Shown: piece by piece, positions 32,445-42,871 of the stretch
How the letters are laid out: the number at the start of each line of letters is the position of its first letter
How positions within the stretch are numbered: position 1 is the stretch's first letter
Assembly: GCF_007830055.1 (NCBI RefSeq)
Contig: NZ_VLLE01000002.1
Coordinates: forward strand, 569,953 to 633,952
Direction: 5' to 3'
DNA from: Lacibacter cauensis
Lineage (GTDB): Bacteria > Bacteroidota > Bacteroidia > Chitinophagales > Chitinophagaceae
Length of the DNA stretch: 64,000 nt
Position numbers and translations under genes: made by a program
Notes under the pieces: generated by a model
The model's database searches: none
What the model was told of the DNA's origin: nothing
The model's input: the letters and a program-made list of their open reading frames with translations, nothing else

Positions 32445-33701
32445 ATGCCTTATTTATTTACATCCGAATCAGTTTCTGAAGGACATCCTGATAAAGTTGC
32501 AGACCAGATCAGTGATGCGTTGATTGATAACTTTCTTGCTTTTGATCCGCAGTCGAAGGTGGCTTGCGAAACACTGGTTACAACGGGACAAGTTGTGTTG
32601 GCCGGTGAAGTAAAATCGAAAGCTTACCTGGATGTACAGGACATTGCACGTGGTGTAATTAAAAAGATTGGCTATACTAAGAGCGAGTATATGTTCGAAG
32701 CAAACTCATGTGGTGTGTTAAGCGCTATTCATGAGCAGAGTGCCGACATTAACCAAGGTGTTGATCGTAAGAAGAAAGAAGAGCAAGGTGCTGGTGATCA
32801 AGGTATGATGTTTGGTTATGCAACTAACGAAACAGAGCATTACATGCCATTGGCGTTGGATCTTGCACATAATCTGTTAATTGAATTAGCAGCTATCCGT
32901 CGTGAGAAGAATTCGAAAATGCCTTACCTGCGTCCAGATGCAAAGAGCCAGGTAACATTGGAATACGATGATAACAACCGCCCGGTTCGTATTGATGCAA
33001 TTGTAATTTCTACACAGCACGATGATTTTGATGCCGAAGCAAAAATGCTGGCGAAGATCAAAGCTGATGTAATCAATATTCTGATCCCTCGCATTAAGTC
33101 AAAATATAAAAAGTACGCTAAGTTGTTCAACAACGACATTAAATACCACATCAACCCAACAGGTAAGTTTGTAATTGGCGGGCCTCACGGTGATACTGGT
33201 TTAACAGGTCGTAAAATCATTGTTGATACATACGGTGGTAAAGGTGCACACGGTGGTGGTGCGTTCAGCGGTAAAGATCCTTCTAAAGTAGATCGTTCTG
33301 CTGCTTATGCAACACGCCATATTGCAAAGAACCTTGTTGCTGCAGGTTTGTGCGATGAAGTGCTGGTACAGGTTTCTTATGCAATTGGTGTTGCCAAGCC
33401 AACCTCTATCAACGTAAATACATATGGTACAGCAAAGGTTGATTTGAGCGATGGCGAAATTGCAAAGATTGTTGAAGGCATCTTTGATATGCGTCCTTAC
33501 TTCATCGAGCAGCGCTTGAAATTGCGTAACCCGATCTACAGTGAAACAGCAGCTTATGGTCACATGGGTCGTGTTCCTGAAGTGGTTGAGAAATCATTCA
33601 AGAGTCCCGATGGTAAAGTGAAGAAAGTAAAAGTTGAGTTGTTTACCTGGGAGAAATTAGATTATGTATCGAAAGTGAAAAAAGCTTTCGGTTTAAAATA
33701 A
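32445..33701 (+). CDS. metK: S-adenosylmethionine synthase
   Basis: A 418-residue enzyme making SAM from methionine and ATP. Signatures are [20 protein letters not shown], the [12 protein letters not shown] loop, [12 protein letters not shown] and the [19 protein letters not shown] phosphate-binding segment. It is slightly longer than the E. coli enzyme because of an insertion around residues 200-230. It supplies SAM for, among others, the rlmB-type methyltransferase immediately downstream. Its own promoter and a GAAA-loop terminator make it a single-gene unit. Confidence 0.97.
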
Positions 33702-33725
33702 CCCAATAAACCATCAATGTGGTTC

Positions 33726-33762
33726 AAACCCATAAACCGAAAGGTTTGTGGGTTTCTTTTTT
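33726..33762 (+). terminator. Rho-independent terminator after metK
   Basis: A 13-base stem (33726-33738 with 33743-33755, AAACCCATAAACC) with a GAAA tetraloop and one wobble pair, followed by CTTTTTT. Confidence 0.9.
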
Positions 33763-34542
33763 ATGTTTCTTTGCAATGTGAAACAGTTCCGTCAAAAACA
33801 ACAACGTCCCAAAAAGTCTTCATTAGTAATTGGCCGTATTGCCGTGCTTGAAGCATTGCAGGAAGGCAAACAACTCGATCGTATTTACATGCAGAGTAAT
33901 TTGCATGGCGATGTAGCCGATGAAATTCAAAAGCTGGCTTATAAGCAACAGGTGCCCATTAATAAAGTACCGGTTGAAAAGCTGAACAGTTTTAATGTCA
34001 ACGATCATGAGGGTATTGTTGCACAGCTTTCGAAGATTCGTTACCAGGATCTGCAGCAGGTAATTGATTGGGTAGTGGAGAAAGGTGAAGCACCGATGTT
34101 TGTTATTCTTGATGGTGTTACCGATGTACGCAATATCGGCGGTATTGCACGTACGGCTTTATGCTGTGGTGCACAGGCTATCATCATTCCGGATAAAGGA
34201 GTGGGGGCGTTGAATGAAGATGCGATACTGGCCAGTGCCGGTGCATTGGAACAAATTGCTGTATGCCGTGTAAACAGTTTAATGAAAGCGGTGGATGATC
34301 TGCATCTTAACGGCATCAAAGTATTGGCGAGTGAAATGACAGCAAAGAAAAGTATTTACACTTGCGATTTTAAAGAACCTTGTGCCATTGTAATGGGAGG
34401 AGAAGAGAAAGGTGTTTTTCCAGGTTTGATGAAGATTTGCGATGAAACGTTTAAAATTCCCATGAAAGGAGATTTTGAAAGTTTAAATGTAGGTGTAGCA
34501 ACGGCAATGATTCTGTACGAAGGGATGAAGCAGCGAGGGTAG
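33763..34542 (+). CDS. rlmB: TrmH/SpoU-family 23S rRNA guanosine-2'-O-methyltransferase (RlmB type)
   Basis: A SPOUT methyltransferase of up to 259 residues. The N-terminal L30e-like substrate domain is LVIGRIAVLEALQEG. The C-terminal knot has the three SpoU motifs: LDGVTDVRNIGGIARTA, IVMGGEEKGV and IPMKGDFESLNVGVATAM. RlmB methylates G2251 of 23S rRNA; a related tRNA target cannot be excluded. The start is uncertain. ATG 33763 directly follows the metK terminator T-run, while a -7-like TTTCTTTG at 33766-33773 points to GTG 33778 as a leaderless start. Confidence 0.88.
   Translation: MFLCNVKQFRQKQQRPKKSSLVIGRIAVLEALQEGKQLDRIYMQSNLHGDVADEIQKLAYKQQVPINKVPVEKLNSFNVNDHEGIVAQLSKIRYQDLQQVIDWVVEKGEAPMFVILDGVTDVRNIGGIARTALCCGAQAIIIPDKGVGALNEDAILASAGALEQIAVCRVNSLMKAVDDLHLNGIKVLASEMTAKKSIYTCDFKEPCAIVMGGEEKGVFPGLMKICDETFKIPMKGDFESLNVGVATAMILYEGMKQRG
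33766..33773 (+). promoter_or_regulatory. Possible -7 element (TTTCTTTG) inside the rlmB 5' end
   Basis: One mismatch to TAnnTTTG, lying between the metK terminator and GTG 33778. If used, translation must begin at or after 33778. Confidence 0.35.
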
Positions 34543-34578
34543 CTTAACCTTTTTTCCTAACTCTCTTAAGTTGAAATA

Positions 34579-35436
34579 ATGGAGCAGCATTCAATTAAAC
34601 TTATCGAATGTCCACGTGATGCTATGCAGGGGTGGAAACAGATGATTCCTACCGAAAAGAAAATCGCTTACATCAATGCTTTGTTACAGGTAGGGTTTGA
34701 TACGATCGACTTTGGAAGTTTTGTATCGCCCAAAGCTATTCCACAAATGGCCGATACGAAACAGGTGCTTGCCGGGCTTGACTTAACCGGTTCAAAATCG
34801 AAACTGTTGGCCATTATCGCCAATGAAAGAGGAGCCGAAGAGGCTGTTTTGTACAACGAAATCAGTTACCTCGGGTTTCCGCTATCTGTCTCCGAAACAT
34901 TTCAGCATCGAAATACGAATAGTTCAATCGCAGAGTCGTTAAAAAGGGTAGAGGCGATTCAGGAACTCTGTATTAGAAACAATAAGCAACTGGTGGTTTA
35001 TCTGTCGATGGGATTTGGTAACCCGTATGGCGACTCGTGGTCGGAAGAGATCGTTTTTGAAAAGGCTAATCAACTGGCCAATATGGGAATTGAGATTATT
35101 TCACTTGCAGATACTGTGGGGCTGGCAACGGCCGACCAGGTAAAACGTGTAACCGGTCATCTTATCCGAAACATGCCTGAGGTTGAAATAGGTGTTCACC
35201 TGCATTCAACCGCCGTTAACTGGAGAGAAAAACTCGAGGCTGCTTACAAGGTTGGCTGTCGAAGATTCGATTCTGCACTTTTGGGAATCGGCGGTTGTCC
35301 GATGGCCAATGATGAATTGGTGGGTAACATGGATACAACGAAAGTGTTGAGTTTTTTTGAAAACAAAGAATCGCTGCATTTGAATGCTGAAGCCTTGCAG
35401 CTCAGCCTGCATTTAGCCGCCGAAATATTTAACTGA
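34579..35436 (+). CDS. Hydroxymethylglutaryl-CoA lyase
   Basis: A 285-residue TIM-barrel enzyme that splits HMG-CoA into acetyl-CoA and acetoacetate in leucine breakdown. The HMGL-like family residues are visible: Arg-Asp in ECPRDAMQGW, the metal histidines in GVHLHSTAVNW, and the catalytic cysteine in LLGIGGCPMANDE. Length is normal. Its stop shares one base with the start of the GSCFA gene. The other leucine-degradation genes are not in this window, although the acyl-CoA dehydrogenase at 4.7 kb belongs to the same broad class. Confidence 0.92.
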   Translation: MEQHSIKLIECPRDAMQGWKQMIPTEKKIAYINALLQVGFDTIDFGSFVSPKAIPQMADTKQVLAGLDLTGSKSKLLAIIANERGAEEAVLYNEISYLGFPLSVSETFQHRNTNSSIAESLKRVEAIQELCIRNNKQLVVYLSMGFGNPYGDSWSEEIVFEKANQLANMGIEIISLADTVGLATADQVKRVTGHLIRNMPEVEIGVHLHSTAVNWREKLEAAYKVGCRRFDSALLGIGGCPMANDELVGNMDTTKVLSFFENKESLHLNAEALQLSLHLAAEIFN

Positions 35437-36410
35437 TGAACTTTTTTGCACATATTGATTTGAAGCCTTTGCCGATGCCGATCACGCATCAGCAGAAGCT
35501 TTTACTTATCGGAAGTTGTTTTACAGAGCATATTGGAAATAATCTTAGCGATTTGAAATTTAATGTTTTACAAAATCCTAATGGTATTTTGTTTGAGACA
35601 GAAAGTGTAGCCCGGAGCCTGGTTTCGTACATTCAACATAAACAGTATGCCGCTGCGGATTTGTTTCATTATAATGAACTTTGGCAGAGCTGGGATCATC
35701 ATAGCCGGTTCTCCAATCCATCACTGGAAGCTGCTTTAACTGCAATAAATCAGTCGCAAACCGAAGCGCATCATTTTTTAAAAGATGCCGATTGGCTTAT
35801 TATTACGCTAGGCTCGTCGTTTGTGTATAAGCTGAATGATGCTGGCCGTTTTGTTGCCAACTGTCACAAGGCTCCCGGACAATGGTTTACAAAGCATTTA
35901 TTGCCCATAGATGAGCAAATTGCTTTGCTGGACAATACCATTCACCAGCTGTTTCATTTTAATCCCAGGCTAAAGATCATTTTTACTATCAGTCCAGTAA
36001 GGCATCTGCGTGATGGCGTTGTGGAAAATAACCGCAGCAAGGCCCGTTTGCTTGAAACCGTGCATCATCTCGTAAATAAGTTCGATCGGTTGTTTTATTT
36101 CCCGGCTTATGAGCTGGTTATTGATGTGCTGCGTGATTATCGTTTTTACGATATCGATCTGGCACATCCCAATTACGCTGCTACACAGTTTGTAATGGAT
36201 AAGTTCAGCGAATGTGCATTTACAGAAGAAACGAAAAGTTTAATCAAAACAATCCGGCAAATTGTAACGGCGAAAAATCACAAAGCATTTAACCCCGAAT
36301 CGCAACAGCACCAAGCATTTCTAAAGCAACATTATGAAAAGGCAGTTCAGCTTGCACAGGAGCATCCATATCTAAATCTCCAAGATGAGCTGCAATACTT
36401 TAAAGGTTGA
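35436..36410 (+). CDS. GSCFA-domain protein (SGNH-hydrolase-like)
   Basis: A 324-residue protein named for its N-terminal motif, here GSCFT in LLLIGSCFTEHIGNNL. It is followed by LGSSFVYK, IFTISPVRHLRDGVVENN and the DIDLAHPNYAATQFV segment, which carries the Asp/His of an SGNH-like active site. The family is thought to be lipase- or esterase-like, but I know of no proven substrate. The start overlaps the HMG-CoA lyase stop by one base (TGATG), so translation is coupled. Confidence 0.88.
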   Translation: MNFFAHIDLKPLPMPITHQQKLLLIGSCFTEHIGNNLSDLKFNVLQNPNGILFETESVARSLVSYIQHKQYAAADLFHYNELWQSWDHHSRFSNPSLEAALTAINQSQTEAHHFLKDADWLIITLGSSFVYKLNDAGRFVANCHKAPGQWFTKHLLPIDEQIALLDNTIHQLFHFNPRLKIIFTISPVRHLRDGVVENNRSKARLLETVHHLVNKFDRLFYFPAYELVIDVLRDYRFYDIDLAHPNYAATQFVMDKFSECAFTEETKSLIKTIRQIVTAKNHKAFNPESQQHQAFLKQHYEKAVQLAQEHPYLNLQDELQYFKG

Positions 36411-36470
36411 TTATCAAATCCTAAAGTAAATATTTTTCTTATAATTAATATTATGTTAAATAGCCGCACA

Positions 36471-36500
36471 GAAAAAAAATGGGGACGAAAAAAGAAATGA
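36471..36500 (+). repeat. Left copy of an imperfect inverted repeat around two orphan genes
   Basis: GAAAAAAAATGGGGACGAAA and the next ten bases match the complement of 37108-37140. There are two identical blocks of about 12 and 14 bases, separated by a few differing bases. The copies lie just outside (left) and at the 5' end (right) of the convergent pair 36546-37143. Confidence 0.5.
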
Positions 36501-36545
36501 TCCGGAACAACCCGCTTCTTTCGTGGCTTACTTTAAATTTAAAGC

Positions 36546-36851
36546 ATGAAACACTACGACTTTGTAACAGCGGTTAAATTAAGGGAATATTATGCAGACA
36601 AACTTAGTGGACTACCCCTTAGTGAATCAATCAGCACATCAATAACAAATATTATTGCATGTATTGCTGGGCAGCAACAGCAGCAAGCTACAAATAATGA
36701 ATCGCTTAATATTGATTCCGACCTTACACCAGAGGAACGAATAATGAAAATCTATGTAGTTGTAGGATACGTTAAAAATGGAAAGGATTATTACTTTGAA
36801 GAATTAGAGAACATTCTGAAATTTAACGGTCTCGATATGGTAAGCCTTTAA
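36546..36851 (+). CDS. Orphan 101-residue protein
   Basis: I do not recognise this protein. It is acidic and helical-looking, with a Gln run (GQQQQQ) at about residues 42-47 and a C-terminal YFEELENILKFNGLDMVSL that might be an amphipathic helix. There is no signal peptide or membrane segment. Base use is more AT-rich than in the neighbours. The last 29 bases overlap the convergent gene at 36823-37143. The pair is bracketed by an imperfect inverted repeat, which hints at acquired DNA. Toxin-antitoxin function would be a guess. Confidence 0.6.
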   Translation: MKHYDFVTAVKLREYYADKLSGLPLSESISTSITNIIACIAGQQQQQATNNESLNIDSDLTPEERIMKIYVVVGYVKNGKDYYFEELENILKFNGLDMVSL

Positions 36852-37143
36852 TGTCACAAAGGTCTTTTACAGACTTGTTCGACATTTTGCTTATTCGTTC
36901 CTGACAATCCCACATCCAGTTTAAAAATCTATCAATTTTTGCTTGGTCGGTAATTATTTCTCTATCTACCGATAAGAAAACAAGTTCACCATTCATTTTC
37001 ATATACCAATGGATTTCACCTTCCTGTAACATGTGTGGTGGAACATTAGCATACTTCTTATAAAAATCAAGGGAAAATCTATCTTCGATAGCTTCTCCCT
37101 CTTTATTCATTTCTTTTTCTATGTCCCCATTTTTTTCTTCCAT
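36823..37143 (-). CDS. Orphan 106-residue protein, convergent with the previous gene
   Basis: I do not recognise this protein. It is hydrophilic, with an acidic N-terminus (MEEKNGDIEKEMNKEGEA), a Trp-rich middle (GEIHWYMKMNGELVF) and FLNWMWDCQERISKM towards the end. No export signal is seen. Its first codons lie in the right copy of the inverted repeat, and an 8-base palindrome precedes it. The 3' ends of the two orphan genes overlap by 29 bases, so their transcripts could pair. Confidence 0.6.
   Translation of the reverse strand: MEEKNGDIEKEMNKEGEAIEDRFSLDFYKKYANVPPHMLQEGEIHWYMKMNGELVFLSVDREIITDQAKIDRFLNWMWDCQERISKMSNKSVKDLCDIKGLPYRDR
37108..37140 (-). repeat. Right copy of the inverted repeat
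   Basis: The complement reads GAAGAAAAAAATGGGGACAT and continues AGAAAAAGAAATGA, matching 36471-36500. It encodes the first residues of the minus-strand orphan gene. Confidence 0.5.
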
Positions 37144-37150
37144 ATGTTCA

Positions 37151-37178
37151 GGATTCGTTTTTTAAAACTTACGAATCC
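37151..37178. promoter_or_regulatory. Palindrome upstream of the minus-strand orphan gene
   Basis: GGATTCGT (37151-37158) pairs with ACGAATCC (37171-37178) across 12 AT-rich bases, eight bases before the ATG of the 36823-37143 gene. It could be an operator or an RNA hairpin. Confidence 0.4.
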
Positions 37179-37251
37179 AGAACCACTGAACCCGTAGCTA
37201 TTTAAACATAATATTGTCTTATATAATTTCTCGTACCGCCCCCTTCCAACT

Positions 37252-37324
37252 GCCGCCCGTGTTCAGGCGAACATCCCCCTGCGCACAAGCACCAAGGCAG
37301 GATGTCCGCCTGAACACGGGCGGC
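37252..37324. repeat. GC-rich inverted repeat with 25-base arms (REP/MITE-like)
   Basis: Arms 37252-37276 and 37300-37324 (starting GCCGCCCGTGTTCAGGCG) pair with one mismatch around a 23-base loop. The element is far richer in G+C than the AT-rich flanks and has no T-run, so it does not look like a terminator. It occupies the middle of the longest intergenic gap (37144-37417), which otherwise shows nothing coding. Confidence 0.8.
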
Positions 37325-37417
37325 GCTGTCGGGAGCTACACCCAAATAATTCAATCCCTCCGCTAAGAAATCATATAAGAAATTTTTATGTTAAGCAGCT
37401 AAAAGACAATTTCAAAC

Positions 37418-37865
37418 CTACATTTGCTGCTTAGCAATGATGAACGGGATCAGCTGATCGATATCAAGGCCTGCCCTGTTGAGCGCATCAGCAATTTCAT
37501 CTCGGTTAACGTTGGCGGCAAAACTTTTTTCTTTCAGCCGCTTTTTTACTCCTTTCAATTCCATGCCCGCATAACCCTCCGGCCGCATTAAGCTGTAAGC
37601 ATGAATCAGTCCGCTAAGCTCATCAAATGCATACAGCAGCTTGTCCATTTTTGATTGCCATTTCCCAACGCCACTGGCCAGCTTCATCCAGTTGCTCCAT
37701 TTCGGCGGCCCAGCTTTTCATGAGTTGAGCTACTTGCCGCATATGCAGCTTTAATCGTTCATTTTTAACCCAGTCATTCAGCAACGTTTCAGCGTCGTGT
37801 CGACTCAGTACATTACCTGCATTTGCAGGGGCTCCAAAGTTATTACGGTTTAACAGCAATGACAT
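37418..37865 (-). pseudogene. HD-domain phosphohydrolase, broken by internal deletion and frameshift
   Basis: Two overlapping frames together make one protein. Residues from ATG 37865 (AETLLNDWVKNERLKLHM, with the first metal His) match the N-terminus of HD phosphohydrolases up to GQWRWEMA near 37656. A second frame from about 37654 continues with SKMDKLLYAFDELSGLIHAY, KEKSFAANVNRDEI and a normal C-terminus. The stretch that should lie between, holding GLLHDxDxE and the second catalytic His, is missing, and the frame shifts at the junction near 37655. So the catalytic core was deleted and the gene is probably dead. Annotation as two small hypothetical genes would be wrong. Confidence 0.72.
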
Positions 37866-37894
37866 AGTAATGCGTTTAGATGGTTGAACAGAAT

Positions 37895-37926
37895 AAAAAA
37901 GGCTGTTCAAATGAACAGCCTTTTTT
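37895..37926 (-). terminator. Terminator of the TPR gene
   Basis: A perfect 9-base stem (37901-37909 with 37912-37920, GGCTGTTCA) is flanked by A6 and T6. It is functional in both directions and mainly follows the TPR gene on the minus strand. Confidence 0.88.
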
Positions 37927-37941
37927 ATTGATAATCAATTA

Positions 37942-39207
37942 TTATTGATTTAATGCCTGATATTTTGCATCATATTCTTTTTCCTTATCTTTATTGCCGA
38001 GGAAACGGTGTGCTTCGGTTAAAAGATATACGGTAGACTTGTATTCGTTCTTCGTGCGTCTGTCTTTTAACTGGTCTGCAGTCATTGCGCTGAAGATGTT
38101 GTACGCATTATCAAGACTTGGAATTGCTTCCTTCATCTTTTCGTCCATTTTCTTCTTCATGTCTGCTTTCTTTTGGGTATCTGCAGGAGTTGTTCCTTTG
38201 ATTTTTTTGATTTCGTCCTGGATAAACGCCGCTTCGTTGTAATAGATCTTACCCATTAACAGGTGCGCATCAGCGGTTTTGGGATCCAGCTCAATGCAGT
38301 TTTTTAAAACAGAAATCATTTTGTCGAAGTATACAGGGCGTTGTTCTGCTGTTGCCTTGTTATCCATAAAGATCCAGTTGAAGATTTCAGCTGCATAGTC
38401 ATAACGTACTTCGTAATCCTTCGGGTCGTACGCTGCAATAGTTTCATATTTCTTGAAAACCTCCAACGGGTCTGCTCCGTTTTTGCGCATTTTGTCCAGC
38501 TCTACTTTGTCGTAGTATGAATCCTTCGGATAAAGCTGGCGACCAATATCTGCATATTTTTTAGCGTTTTCTGCATCTTTCTTTTGCTCGTAATAATAAG
38601 CGAGGTAACGATAAACTACGTCAAAACCATCGCCACCAATCTTTGCATCAGCAATCTTTTGGAAGAAGCTTACTGTTTCTTCCTTGTTTTCAAGTTGCAT
38701 TGCTGCAGCGCCTGCATAATAATACAAGATGGTGTCTACTTCGCTGAGAGCCCATTTATTTTTGAAGATGAAACGACCAACTTTGTCGGCTTTCTTATAA
38801 TTATCTAACGCACCCTGGTAATTGCCTGAGTTGTAAAAAGCGTTTGCTTCCTTTTGGAGTTCGAGGTAGTTCTCAAATACCGGGTAGCTTTTGGTCATCA
38901 TGGAAATTTCAGTCTGCTTGCTGTCAAGCTCCATCGCTTTTTGATAAGCTTCGAACGACTGCATCCATGCATCCGGAACCGATGCCTTCAGGTTTGCATC
39001 TTTTGCAATCTGACCATAAATCATTCCTTTATAATACCAGGCTTCCCAGTTCTTTTGTTCTTTTTCTGTTGCCAAAGCTTGGTCTACTGCGTCCTTTGCT
39101 TTTGCCCAGTCTTTTTTGTCGTAAGCACTGCGAATCTTTTTAATATCCTGAGCCGAAATACTCCAGGCAAACAGTACAGCAATCGCTGCGAAAAGAAATT
39201 TTTTCAT
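37942..39207 (-). CDS. Secreted tetratricopeptide-repeat protein
   Basis: A 421-residue protein with a signal peptide (residues 1-19, AWSISAQ). Several TPR-like helical pairs follow, for example KKDWAKAKDAVDQAL, SGNYQGALDNYKKADKVG, KDAENAKKYADIGRQLYP and LDPKTADAHLLMGKIYYNEA. Lys- and Asp-rich segments lie between. TPR proteins act as scaffolds, here probably in the periplasm. It sits 32 bases downstream of gyrA with no terminator between, so read-through from gyrA is possible. Partner proteins are unknown. Confidence 0.87.
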   Translation of the reverse strand: MKKFLFAAIAVLFAWSISAQDIKKIRSAYDKKDWAKAKDAVDQALATEKEQKNWEAWYYKGMIYGQIAKDANLKASVPDAWMQSFEAYQKAMELDSKQTEISMMTKSYPVFENYLELQKEANAFYNSGNYQGALDNYKKADKVGRFIFKNKWALSEVDTILYYYAGAAAMQLENKEETVSFFQKIADAKIGGDGFDVVYRYLAYYYEQKKDAENAKKYADIGRQLYPKDSYYDKVELDKMRKNGADPLEVFKKYETIAAYDPKDYEVRYDYAAEIFNWIFMDNKATAEQRPVYFDKMISVLKNCIELDPKTADAHLLMGKIYYNEAAFIQDEIKKIKGTTPADTQKKADMKKKMDEKMKEAIPSLDNAYNIFSAMTADQLKDRRTKNEYKSTVYLLTEAHRFLGNKDKEKEYDAKYQALNQ

Positions 39208-39239
39208 TTTCTTTTTTATTTTGATAATTATTGTTTTTT

Positions 39240-41849
39240 TTACTGATTATCAGTTGATTCGGTGTTTGTTTCTTCGTCGGTTGGCGTAGTGTTTTCGTTA
39301 GATGCTTCAGGTGTTGATTTCGTTGCATCACTGCTTTCTGTCTCAACAACTTCTTCTTCAATGTTGCTTTCATCTAACCGTGTAATGGCTGCAATTTCAT
39401 CGCCATCATCCACACGAATCAGCTTTACACCCTGAGTTGCACGGCCCTGTTCACTGATTTGGGCAACCTTCATACGGATGGTGATACCGCTCTTACAACT
39501 AATCATCAGGTCTTCTTTTTCGGTTACTTCAAGCATACCAACTAAAGGGCCTGTTTTGTCTGTAACGCTGATTGTTTTCACACCTTTACCACCTCTGTTC
39601 GTAATACGGTACTCATCAACAGCTGTACGCTTACCGTAGCCTTTTTCACTTACTACCAATACTGTCCTTGTTGCGTCTTCCCTGTTTACACAAATCATAC
39701 CAACCACTTCGTCGTGCTCGTCATCCACTTCAATACCGGCAACACCAATTGCGCCACGGCCGGTCGGTCTTACTTTTTCTTCAGGGAAACGAATGGCCCG
39801 TCCGCTCTTCACTGCCATCATAATTTCGCTGTTGCCATCGGTCATCTTCGCTTCCAGTAACTGATCTCCTTCTACGATGGTAATCGCATTCACACCGGTT
39901 GCACGACGTCTGCTAAAGTCTTCTAAAAGCGTTTTCTTAATAATACCCTTCCTGGTGCAGAGTACAATGTAATGATTCTTTACAAATTCTTCATCGTCGA
40001 GGTTGGCAACATCAATGATCGCTCTCACCTTATCATCCGGTGGTAATTGCATCAGGTTTTGAATTGCACGCCCCTTGCTGGTCTTATCACCTTCAGGAAT
40101 TTCGTAGCTCTTCAGCCAGTAACAACGACCTTTTTCGGTAAAGAACAACAGTGTGTGGTGGGTAGATGCAACAAAGAGATGTTCTACATAATCCTCTTCT
40201 CTTGTTTTGCTACCGATTGCTCCCCTGCCACCACGCTTCTGCTGACGGTATTCGGTAGCAGATGTACGTTTGATGTATCCATGATGTGAAATTGTGATCA
40301 CCACATCTTCTTCTTTGATGAGGTCTTCAATACGTACTTCGTTATCGAGATAAGTAATTTCTGTTTTACGCTCGTCGCCAAAACGTTCTTTTACTTCCAG
40401 GAGTTCGGTTTTGATGAGCTCGAAACGCATGGTTTCATTTGAGAGGATTTCATTCAGGTGTGCAATCAACTTCATCAGTTCGTCGTACTCCTGTTTGATC
40501 TTGTCACGTTCCATGCCTGTTAAACGCTGGAGACGTAATTCCAGAATGGCTTTGGCCTGAATTTCATCCAATCCCCATCCTGCATTGATCAGGTTATCCT
40601 TGGCAATATCCGGTGTGGCAGAGCTGCGGATCAAAGCAATTACCTCATCGAGGTGATCCAAGGCAATTAAATAACCTTGTAAGATGTGTGCACGCTCCTG
40701 CGCCTTGCGTAATTCGTATTTGGTACGACGTACAACCACTTCGTGACGGAACTCGACGAACTCTGAAATCATGTCTTTCAGGTTGAGTGTTCTGGGACGT
40801 CCTTTTACAAGCGCCACGTTGTTGATGCCGTAAGAAGTCTGCAGTTCGGTGTATTTGAACAACTGGTTGATGATAACGTTTGCTACTGCATCACGCTTCA
40901 GATCAACCACAATACGAGTACCTTCTTTCTGGTTACTTTCGTTGTTTACGTGAACGATACCTTCAATAACCTTGTCGTTTACCAATTGGCCGATCTTATC
41001 GGTCAAAGCATCACGGTTTACCTGGTAAGGCACTTCGGTAATGATGATTTGTTCACGACCACTGGTTTTGGTTTCAACCGTTAATTTTCCACGCAATACA
41101 ACACGACCACGACCAGTGTGGTAACCGGCTTTGATGCCTTCCATGCCGAATATAGTTCCAGCGGTGGGGAAATCCGGAGCCTTTACATACTGCATCAGTT
41201 CGTCAATCGTGATCTCACGGTTATCGATATACGCCACGCAACCGTCAATTACTTCGCTGAGGTTATGCGGCATCATGTTGGTAGCCATACCTACGGCGAT
41301 ACCACTGGAGCCGTTTACCAGCAACTGTGGTATGCGGGTTGGAAGTACAGTAGGTTCCGTTTCGGAGTCATCGAAGTTATTCTGGAAGTCTACAGTTTCT
41401 TTGTCAATATCATTCAGCATGCTTTCGGTAAGGCGTTCCATACGTACCTCTGTGTAACGCATAGCCGCCGGACCATCACCATCCTGGTTACCGAAGTTAC
41501 CCTGACCATCGACCAAGGTGTACCGCATGCTCCATTCCTGGGCCATACGCACCATGGCATCGTATACCGAACTGTCGCCGTGCGGGTGATACTTACCCAG
41601 CACCTCACCCACAACTCTCGCACTTTTTTTGTAGGCTTTGTTGTACTGAAGCCCCAGCTCGTTCATGGCGTACAAAATGCGGCGATGTACCGGTTTTAAA
41701 CCGTCCCGCACATCAGGAAGTGCACGTCCAACAATTACCGACATCGAGTAATCGATGTAGGCTGTTTTCATTTGCTCTTCGATATTAACCGGAATAATGC
41801 GGCCGTTGTTATCCTGACCGTTTTCCATTGTATTTTCTGTTTGATCCAT
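39240..41849 (-). CDS. gyrA: DNA gyrase subunit A
   Basis: An 869-residue breakage-reunion subunit that introduces negative supercoils together with GyrB. It has the N-terminal [13 protein letters not shown]-like start, the active-site Tyr132 in [12 protein letters not shown], and a C-terminal six-bladed beta-pinwheel with the GyrA-box-like QKRGGRG. The quinolone-determining region reads [13 protein letters not shown], with Ser93 and Asp97 equal to E. coli Ser83 and Asp87, so it looks wild type. The protein ends in an acidic Glu/Thr/Ser-rich tail of about 45 residues. The frame runs to 41870, but ATG 41849 follows a good -7 element. gyrB is not nearby. Confidence 0.97.
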
Positions 41850-41867
41850 AGTAAAAAATAAAGCGGT

Positions 41868-41875
41868 CAAAGATA
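41868..41875 (-). promoter_or_regulatory. -7 element (TATCTTTG) for gyrA
   Basis: A perfect TAnnTTTG on the minus strand, 18 bases before ATG 41849 and inside the longer open frame, which supports the shorter start. Confidence 0.6.
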
Positions 41876-41958
41876 CCGAAAACGGAGGGCAATACGCACT
41901 TCAACAAGTGTTTATTTACACTGTTTTTCAACAAATTAAAGGCTTTTGTGGAAAAGAA

Positions 41959-41979
41959 AAGCCGGAGCGAATCCGGCTT
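41959..41979 (-). terminator. Terminator of the beta-barrel gene
   Basis: A perfect 8-base stem (41959-41966 with 41972-41979, AAGCCGGA) with a 5-base loop. The minus strand continues TTTTCTTTTCC. Confidence 0.75.
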
Positions 41980-41989
41980 GAAAATTTTA

Positions 41990-42871
41990 TTAAAAAACAT
42001 TGGTTGGACAGCCCAGCGAAGACCGCTTTCGGCCAGCTTTTCCGCTGCCCGTATTACCCCTGCTCCCGCCTGTTATGCGGTAGCTAAGTGTAACTCCAAG
42101 GAAATAGTAATTATCGTCGTACTGGCTGCCACCTCTCACCTGCAAATTCGGCGGATAAGGATCGCCGCTGTGTGTTGGTAATTCGGGTGTGCGGAACGAC
42201 ATTTCAACTGCTTTTGGTCCACGGTTGGCAAGTAAAACGGCAGGGTCAACATAGGTCTTACTCACATCATCCATGTAATCGGTGAAGGTTTTCCGGTAGC
42301 CAAATTCTACACCTACATCAAACCTGTCTGTTAATACCATACGTACACCAATTCCAAGCGGAACTGTAAACTGTGTTAAGCTGTACGGTTTCCGATCTGG
42401 GTAACCGGGTAAGCCCTGTCCTTCGGTTGACAATGGTTTCAGGAAAACTTTATTACCTGTCCGATCGTAGGCGTAAGGATTATAATAAAAACCAGCTAAT
42501 GCCCCAAACACGTACGGTGAAAATACACGGTTATCCATACCAAGAAAATGATATTCTGCACCGGCATGTAATTCGTAAATATTTGTACTGAAGCTTAAGT
42601 TTCGTAATTGGTTAAAAGGATTTGTTTGAAAACGATCTTCTGCCCGCAGGTTCGCCAAATGCAAACCACCACGAAGCATAATATACGGGTTGATATCGTA
42701 ACTGGCCCATAAACCAACTGCATAACGTGCCTGCTGAAACGTAAAAGGTTTGGCCTGCAGATCGCCATTGTAATTGGCCATGCCGCCAAACAGGTTTAAA
42801 CGCAAATCCTGTGCTGTTGAAAAAAGAAAAGTTGATGCGGTAAAAATGAGTGTCAGCAGTTTCTTTTGCAT
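41990..42871 (-). CDS. Outer-membrane beta-barrel protein (DUF6089-like)
   Basis: A 293-residue protein with a signal peptide (residues 1-20, STAQ). The mature part opens with DLRLNLFGGMANYNGDLQAK, a pattern seen in small Bacteroidota barrels, followed by alternating aromatic strands (SPYVFGALAGFYYNPYAY, FDVGVEFGYRKTFTDYMDD). The barrel-type penultimate strand DNYYFLGVTLSYRI is near the end, after which a Gly/Ser/Lys-rich tail of about 25 residues extends. It is likely an eight-strand barrel of unknown role. It has its own promoter and terminator. Confidence 0.82.
   Translation of the reverse strand: MQKKLLTLIFTASTFLFSTAQDLRLNLFGGMANYNGDLQAKPFTFQQARYAVGLWASYDINPYIMLRGGLHLANLRAEDRFQTNPFNQLRNLSFSTNIYELHAGAEYHFLGMDNRVFSPYVFGALAGFYYNPYAYDRTGNKVFLKPLSTEGQGLPGYPDRKPYSLTQFTVPLGIGVRMVLTDRFDVGVEFGYRKTFTDYMDDVSKTYVDPAVLLANRGPKAVEMSFRTPELPTHSGDPYPPNLQVRGGSQYDDNYYFLGVTLSYRITGGSRGNTGSGKAGRKRSSLGCPTNVF

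Follow-up and report, generated by a model that had tools for sequence, protein, structure and literature searches.

A small gene cassette at the dif site of Lacibacter cauensis and its relatives in Chitinophagaceae chromosomes and phages

Introduction

The stretch of DNA considered here, hereafter the window, comprises 64,000 nucleotides of the genome of Lacibacter cauensis (Chitinophagaceae, Bacteroidota; RefSeq assembly GCF_007830055.1, contig NZ_VLLE01000002.1, positions 569,953 to 633,952 of the forward strand), and carries, just downstream of a GSCFA gene, a 935-bp insert with two small genes, orfA and orfB, and a right end with strong predicted secondary structure. In this study we describe the insert and the chromosomal dif site in which it lies, compare it with elements of the same plan at dif in other genomes and with their counterparts in phages, and weigh how such small units, in which we recognized no recombinase, might enter the chromosome.

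Results

Features of the locus

The original prediction for this locus had described an AT-rich patch with two small convergent genes, an inverted repeat around them, a very GC-rich hairpin and a broken HD-phosphohydrolase gene, and had proposed a recombination or insertion point and the acquisition of both orphan genes. All of these features are present (Table 1). GC content falls to 0.362, 0.350 and 0.336 in the three 500-bp intervals of positions 36250-37249, against 0.376-0.512 in the other intervals of 33000-41999, and is 0.378 over the whole insert. The tails of the two convergent genes overlap, the repeat around them (AATATTATGTTAAA at 36447-36460, TTAAACATAATATT at 37202-37215) is 93% complementary and consists of the XerD half of dif and an inverted dif-like site (R2), and the hairpin arms (37252-37276 and 37300-37324) are 96% complementary. 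The patch as first drawn does contain an insert, but the HD remnant that it took in belongs to the resident chromosome. The left edge of the insert proper falls inside dif and its right edge is a second dif-like site (R1); its left end is similar to those of the other elements and phage copies described below (roughly TTAARYAGGCGCAC).

Neither gene resembles a known family: orfA has no match in Pfam or PADLOC, and orfB has none in PADLOC and none above the Pfam cut-off, so that no replication initiator, capsid or morphogenesis gene was recognized by Pfam in the insert, of which these are the two open reading frames (ORFs). Among 294 genomes of the family, orfA is present only in the source genome, and orfB in the source genome and, as a weak match (E 6e-4), in one other. 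The segment 37196-37400 is predicted to fold at -44.7 kcal/mol, compared with -20.0 +/- 2.9 kcal/mol for 200 dinucleotide shuffles (z -8.5), none of which was as good. A dispersed repeat of the repetitive extragenic palindromic (REP) kind was ruled out, since a search of the genome at up to three mismatches gave no further copy of the hairpin, and a known RNA family was rejected when Rfam gave no match for nine sources. No tRNA gene lies within 34000-40000.

Table 1. Coordinates in the window of the cassette, its parts and the adjoining genes
Feature	Position	Strand	Description
dif site	36434..36461	+	XerC arm TTTTCTTATAA, center TTAATA, XerD arm TTATGTTAAAT; left edge of insert
Inserted cassette	36456..37390	+	935 bp; cut G/TTAA at either end
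Left end and leader of cassette	36456..36545	+	begins TTAAATAGCCGCACAG...
orfA	36546..36851	+	ORF; orphan protein, 101 aa
orfB	36823..37143	-	ORF; orphan protein, 106 aa
R2, inverted dif-like site	37201..37228	-	within right end of insert; predicted pairing partner of R1 in single-stranded DNA
Apical GC-rich hairpin	37252..37324	none	between R2 and R1
R1, right-end dif-like site	37369..37396	+	right edge of insert; AATCATATAAG AAATTT TTATGTTAAGC; direct repeat of dif core
GSCFA gene	35436..36410	+	left neighbor of dif in the genus; Pfam PF08885, E 5e-86
HD-phosphohydrolase-type pseudogene	37418..37866	-	146-bp deletion; resident chromosome, outside the insert

The target is dif

That the insertion took place at dif, where XerC and XerD resolve chromosome dimers, is close to certain. 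Both arms of the site match the E. coli dif sequence, and the pattern CGYATAATNWAYATTATGTTAA was found at no more than one mismatch in 176 of the 294 family genomes, none of them with two copies among the matches listed, compared with a single match for the reversed control pattern; the remaining 118 genomes may spell dif differently or have gaps. The cumulative GC skew of the window reaches its maximum at 35694, 0.7 kb from the site, and in G292, a relative assembled as one contig, it peaks 18 kb from dif over a stretch of 400 kb, the two flanks having skews of +0.050 and -0.022. Sites of this kind are known to lie near the GC-skew switch (PMC3025954; here and below, citations refer to excerpts of the papers named). 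The host encodes a XerD that passes the family cut-off (350 bits) and another protein of Xer type (266 bits), and the seven matches of the XerD (tyrosine-recombinase) model in its genome all lie at least 150 kb from the site, the nearest at about 155 kb.

As a separate observation, a TPR gene and gyrA (37942-41870 in the window) stand just past dif, or past the elements at dif, in several genera of the family (L162, L178, L182, L184, L237, L239, L242, L245, L247, L266 and L269, the neighbors in the first four being named by eye), which places gyrA at the replication terminus.

Empty and filled sites among relatives

Using the GSCFA gene as an anchor, we looked for the locus in 39 genomes including the source genome, 32 of which matched, and then read the loci of 20 relatives. 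The dif site lies downstream of GSCFA in 11 of the 12 congener loci, the twelfth (L043) having no dif match. In the nearest relative, G213, the site is empty: TATAATTAATATTATG/TTAAACAGGTAAAAGAC stands downstream of GSCFA, with a full-length HD gene beyond it. In the window these bases are interrupted by 935 bp, the left junction reading TATTATG/TTAAATAGCC... and the right junction ...TTTTTATG/TTAAGCAGCTAAAAGAC. The sites of G258 and G298 are likewise empty, G301 holds a decayed insert, and G083, G292 and G160 hold differing inserts, measuring 1053, 1558 and 1288 bp, at the very base where the window has its own. The expected insertion point is thus borne out by the empty site in G213, as is the acquisition of two genes so rare in the family; what the prediction had missed is that the insertion base is dif, and that the site is reused by many different cassettes.

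The broken HD gene proved to be another matter. Its 146-bp deletion, which brings a frameshift, occurs only in the window, the gene being open for 197-199 codons in all seven aligned relatives. It is full-length (199 codons) in G083, G292 and G160 with their inserts and in G301 with its decayed one, and the deletion is therefore an event separate from insertion, which rules out breakage of the gene by the insertion and contradicts the tie that the prediction had drawn between the two. The comparison with relatives that the prediction had proposed accordingly came out only in part, an intact HD gene standing beside the empty site of G213 but beside the inserts of other relatives as well. The two pieces of the pseudogene gave no Pfam match above cut-off, and the HD name is that of the prediction. 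As for the arrangement that the prediction had named as its refutation, the slot itself is common to several genera, and the combination of orfA, orfB and a broken HD gene was not found elsewhere.

A family of elements with common ends

We read dif loci from 100 of the 176 genomes together with the 12 congener loci and the window (113 in total), of which 112 could be oriented, L043 being dropped. Downstream of dif the 9-mer TTATGTTAA occurs 20 times in 586 kb, at 18 loci, compared with 5 and 7 matches for two controls over the same bases. Thirteen of these loci are inserts of a common plan (615-1558 bp), one is L114, and four appear unrelated; L138, whose right site is degenerate, adds one more element and brings the loci with a delimited insert of such a plan to 14 of the 112. 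Nine further loci (L129, L137, L139, L143, L144, L162, L178, L039 and L041) have a left end and no intact right end, two of them being cut by the end of a contig. In named genomes the right-end pattern was found at 35 loci, of which 19, on 18 contigs, are of Chitinophagaceae or other Bacteroidota type, with R2, dif or the gyrA/TPR neighbors (among them Sediminibacterium and Parafilimonas), and 16, with neither dif nor R2, were taken as chance.

Altogether 29 elements of 615-1588 bp were delimited, from Chitinophagaceae and other Bacteroidota records. L114 was excluded from this set, and L242, L247 and L249 were dropped as the same records as L180, L105 and L150 (the pairs L237/G087, L242/G178, L247/G024 and L249/G013 are also identical records). 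In the plan that we propose, a cassette would have a left end beginning TTAARY, followed by a short leader and by tiny genes, one to three in number; R2 and R1 would form its right end, in most cases with a long hairpin between them.

Three observations stand beside the family. In the excluded L114, the 0-180 bp past dif hold a tandem pair of 55-bp repeats with the right-end site at the end, a gene-less minimal version of the elements. A match to the R1 pattern was seen in another family of the phylum (L193, G458:C66:23591-23611). Copies of TTATGTTAA, which resembles a XerD arm, also lie 370-790 bp before dif at L094, L104, L125, L146, L162, L166, L169, L178 and L187, and TCTTATAATGTAT..CTACGTTATGTTAA is common to L104 and L162.

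Element-specific pairing within the right end

The elements are bounded by direct sites, and inside the right end, 75-305 nt before the right edge where measured, stands R2, which is present as the exact inverted site ACATAATA in 27 of the 29, usually with the hairpin between it and R1. In the elements tested, R1 sites with ATAAC go with R2 sites with GTTAT, and those with ATAAG go with CTTAT. Over 14 elements, L150 being left out, the predicted duplex of R2 with its own R1 averages -11.4 kcal/mol, compared with -8.1 kcal/mol for swapped partners; none of 20,000 permutations was as good, and the own R1 ranked first among the possible partners of R2 in 7 of the 14. A strict R2...R1 pattern was found downstream of dif at 11 of 112 loci, compared with none of 112 in each of the reversed, reverse-complement and upstream controls and none in 20 shuffles. 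The right end thus contains two inverted dif-like sites that are predicted to pair within a single strand. This is the anatomy of the attachment site of CTXphi, whose attP(+), of about 150 nt, is likewise formed when a pair of inverted dif-like sites anneals within the single strand (PMC4246890, PMC5357621), and it is reminiscent of the microvirus proviruses BMV4-6 (PMC3091885).

Filled sites also retain a trace of the exchange. In the left copy the XerC arm and center are of host type, and in the right copy they are those of the element, from which it follows that strands would have been exchanged on the XerD side of the center.

Arrays and cargo

Complete units can follow one another. In JAFEAE010000004.1 dif is followed by four units in head-to-tail order, measuring 1502, 2083, 823 and 921 bp and each with a terminal R2 and R1, and L268 is an array of two cassettes. 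Cargo is mostly unrelated from one unit to another: the 53 candidate ORFs taken from 29 chromosomal and 9 phage units include only four pairs related at E <=0.01, and in 16 of the 38 units the largest ORF is markedly hydrophobic. No recombinase was recognized in the 29 elements, whose longest open stretch has 264 codons, and no phage gene was recognized among their ORFs, some of which were scanned against Pfam.

Pfam gave two matches above cut-off among 12 cargo proteins, Fic (L178, E 2e-7) and a trypsin-like peptidase (L039, E 2e-8), both in decayed elements outside the 29. With PADLOC, run on 10 cargo proteins, the Fic protein matches candidate-defense models and L128 weakly matches PDC-S35. 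The Fic/Doc-like protein of L178 is encoded on the minus strand, 98-524 bp past dif. Motifs that we take, on our own unconfirmed reading, to be HEPN-like (RNVACH in L037, RNLLAH in the phage locus L206) or retropepsin-like (L267) occur in other cargo.

Permuted copies in phages

Viral contigs were scanned twice, with 15 loci from the first scan and 34 from the second. At ten of them R1 is joined straight to an element-type left end, leader and cargo, and the canonical R2 follows only 450-1500 nt further on. These ten lie on nine contigs and represent eight phages, since L195 and L206 share a contig, 33 kb apart, and L222 and L234 overlap identically. The order of parts means that the phage genome lies between R2 and R1, and by this order the phage copies are circularly permuted cassettes, opened inside the hairpin. 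Five more viral loci depart from this pattern: in L225, which is closed, R2 precedes R1 by 34 nt, L196, L204 and L210 have no R2, and L202 is short.

The phage nature of the surroundings is clearest for L198, with packaging, major head, head morphogenesis and head-tail adaptor genes (PHROGs), and L194, with an endolysin and an exonuclease (PHROGs); the others are classed as phages by their IMG/VR origin and ORFs only. Against its empty phage relative L272, the L194 copy is a clean 877-bp insertion, and the unit has no nucleotide relative in the named phage collection. When the L194 and L217 copies are compared with the near-identical right end of a Sediminibacterium element (L239), their opening falls in the descending arm of the hairpin, where 6 nt are missing for which the opposite arm could serve as template, and inverted repeats adjoining GGGACC stand on either side of the copies. 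Seven of the ten loci were folded (L220, L232 and L234 were not, the last duplicating L222), and all seven are predicted to take the same three-way layout, with a stem formed by the repeats where the phage attaches, of about 11-48 bp in six copies and only about 6 bp in L222.

One viral contig of another type, L227 (IMGVR_UViG_2860764190_000001), has four dif-like sites spaced 1.06, 6.4 and 1.25 kb apart in a region with a Zot-like gene, where a full phage, probably of another host, stands between two short satellite-like units. We set it aside together with L214, which also has a Zot-like gene and a similar site, both being presumably phages of other hosts.

Discussion

The reading that we consider probable is that small cassettes without a recombinase of their own enter dif by means of host XerC/XerD, through a folded single-stranded site in the manner of CTXphi, with phages as their likely vehicle. 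The target site, the empty and filled states, the reuse of one base, the arrays, the element-specific pairing and the phage copies are all read directly from genomes; these record the start and end states, between which a single-stranded intermediate and XerCD catalysis are inferred. On this reading, a phage carrying a cassette would enter the host, and the unit would be released or copied from the phage genome. In the single-stranded cassette R2 would pair with R1, forming one double-stranded dif-like site with a mismatched center, which XerC/XerD would recombine with dif. The dif site would be regenerated intact on the left, which would explain both stacking and tolerance by the host, and the imperfect right site would disfavor excision; the cargo would then be expressed from the leader. 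Carriage between cells is probably by tailed phages, and the cargo, orfA and orfB included, most likely acts in conflict between phage and host.

Several points weigh against this reading. Most dif sites (98 of 112) are empty or hold remnants only, and outside the family such elements are rare, the R1 pattern having matched, in a sample of the phylum, two of the 14 family genomes and one of the 381 others, compared with 5 of 395 for controls. Two of the 29 elements (L150 and L251) lack an exact R2, and the pairing test ignored relatedness among the elements, so that shared ancestry inflates its strength to an unknown degree. The left sites were found by the dif consensus and owe their canonical form partly to this construction; the window and G213 (G000/G213), the sole comparison within a close pair, show directly that the left copy is host-type and the right copy the element's. 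The 9-mer TTATGTTAA is denser upstream of dif (9 times in 111 kb) than downstream, an unexplained excess in which we may possibly be seeing old or degenerate Xer sites. Known defense cargo finds little support, the one good PADLOC match being the Fic protein of a single decayed element, and neither orfA nor orfB has a recognizable function.

One alternative is a remnant of a single-stranded DNA prophage (microvirus or inovirus) at dif, which had lost its phage genes and kept its attachment hairpin and accessory genes. In its favor, dif is the target of microvirus-related proviruses in Bacteroidetes and of inoviruses, and in some of these another dif-like site stands in inverted orientation (PMC3091885, PMC5357621); the Zot-like contigs L214 and L227 also have similar sites. 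We nevertheless regard it as unlikely, because 29 elements of 0.6-1.6 kb, none with an open stretch above 264 codons and none with a recognized phage gene among the ORFs scanned, share both ends, and such precise ends are not expected from independent decay of prophages. The tandem arrays of complete units, and the compact units in phages, indicate moreover that the units move as such.

A retron-like or RNA-templated element is in our judgment quite improbable. Here the phage master copy would be a transcription unit with pairing ends, and a hairpin-closed DNA copy of it would land at dif. The phage copies are indeed opened in the hairpin and most are flanked by paired inverted repeats starting near GGGACC, the L194 unit is preceded by promoter-like sequence, and in the chromosomal copy the repeats are missing and the arm is closed, with the 6 nt templated by the opposite arm. 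DNA template switching, however, could yield the same junction, Rfam gave no match, and a reverse-transcriptase match was obtained in only one of 12 phage records, several of them fragments; in contrast to a retron, no reverse transcriptase linked to msr-msd was found. A motif scan of the phage ORFs for reverse transcriptase gave nothing convincing, and an RNA route is possible but not supported. The one match lies in the L218 record (G703:39271-39825), which carries a cassette copy.

An integron in the proper sense, or a group of attC sites mobilized by an IntI integrase that escaped notice, was our first thought and was abandoned once the site proved to be dif. The gene-cassette arrays with folded ends, and an R1 core (GTTAAGC) that fits the GTTRRRY box, speak for it. 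It is now very hard to credit, the target being dif family-wide, the arms resembling XerC/XerD arms, and none of the seven XerD-model matches, in a search made without an IntI model, lying within 150 kb.

The cassettes of our preferred reading would join a broad group of Xer-exploiting elements, to which the Legionella element LME-1 (PMC9765430) and the Vibrio phage NO16 (PMC9966536) also belong. Like the integrative mobile elements exploiting Xer (IMEX) of the CTXphi type, including the satellites RS1 and TLCphi, they have no recombinase, integrate at dif and have inverted dif-like sites, here predicted to pair; unlike these, they have no recognized phage or replication gene, measure 0.6-1.6 kb and stack in arrays with differing cargo, and their junctions point to exchange on the XerD side rather than the XerC side as in CTXphi. 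Gokushoviruses integrate downstream of an unchanged dif and require both xerC and xerD (PMC7062461), and the microvirus proviruses BMV4-6 of Bacteroidetes have an additional dif-like sequence near one end (PMC3091885). Microviridae proviruses (BMV, Alpavirinae) and Enterogokushovirus prophages resemble the cassettes in integrating at dif without an integrase and leaving the upstream dif unchanged, and differ in their size (about 4.3-6.3 kb) and in having replication and capsid genes. In Acinetobacter, pdif or dif modules, some with toxin-antitoxin genes, occur on plasmids and in an island of modules on the chromosome, framed by short C/D and D/C sites, and the words "hairpin" and "single-stranded" are both absent from the excerpted text (PMC12907356). 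Both systems place gene modules between short Xer sites in arrays; the pdif modules have 28-bp sites with no further structure, whereas the cassettes have a folded right end, start at the primary dif and have phage copies.

Integrons have one entry point, arrays, varied tiny cargo and folded single-strand sites, and the cassettes at dif share all four; they differ in that no dedicated integrase was found adjoining the site (in the search described above), that the target is dif, and that the recombinases would be the housekeeping XerC/XerD. A more ambitious and still tentative idea, to which we give less credence, is an integron analogue run by XerC/XerD, in which cassettes of one to three genes enter dif as folded single strands and stack, supplied by master copies in phages. 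Fold-back copying, by DNA template switching or reverse transcription, would close the hairpin and release the cassette, and phages would in this way deliver small conflict genes to the terminus of hosts that survive.

Within Xer-exploiting elements, the new part is the integron-like arrays and the permuted phage copies. We recognized no description of such cassettes in Bacteroidota in the open-access literature (subscription papers and preprints being outside its scope), and no paper there that treats dif, XerC and Chitinophagaceae together; chromosome dimer resolution in Bacteroidetes is described in the excerpt of PMC3091885 as unstudied as of 2011. Known users of dif are mostly phages, islands or resistance modules, and the family described here seems to have instead a slot for gene cassettes at the replication terminus that needs no dedicated enzyme, in effect an integron-like supply of new small genes run, it seems, by chromosome dimer resolution. 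This would link the dif site of Bacteroidetes to phage-borne gene traffic, and the cassette plan offers a simple rule for finding many unstudied tiny genes. The idea of single-strand, XerD-side integration is directly testable in culturable Chitinophagaceae.

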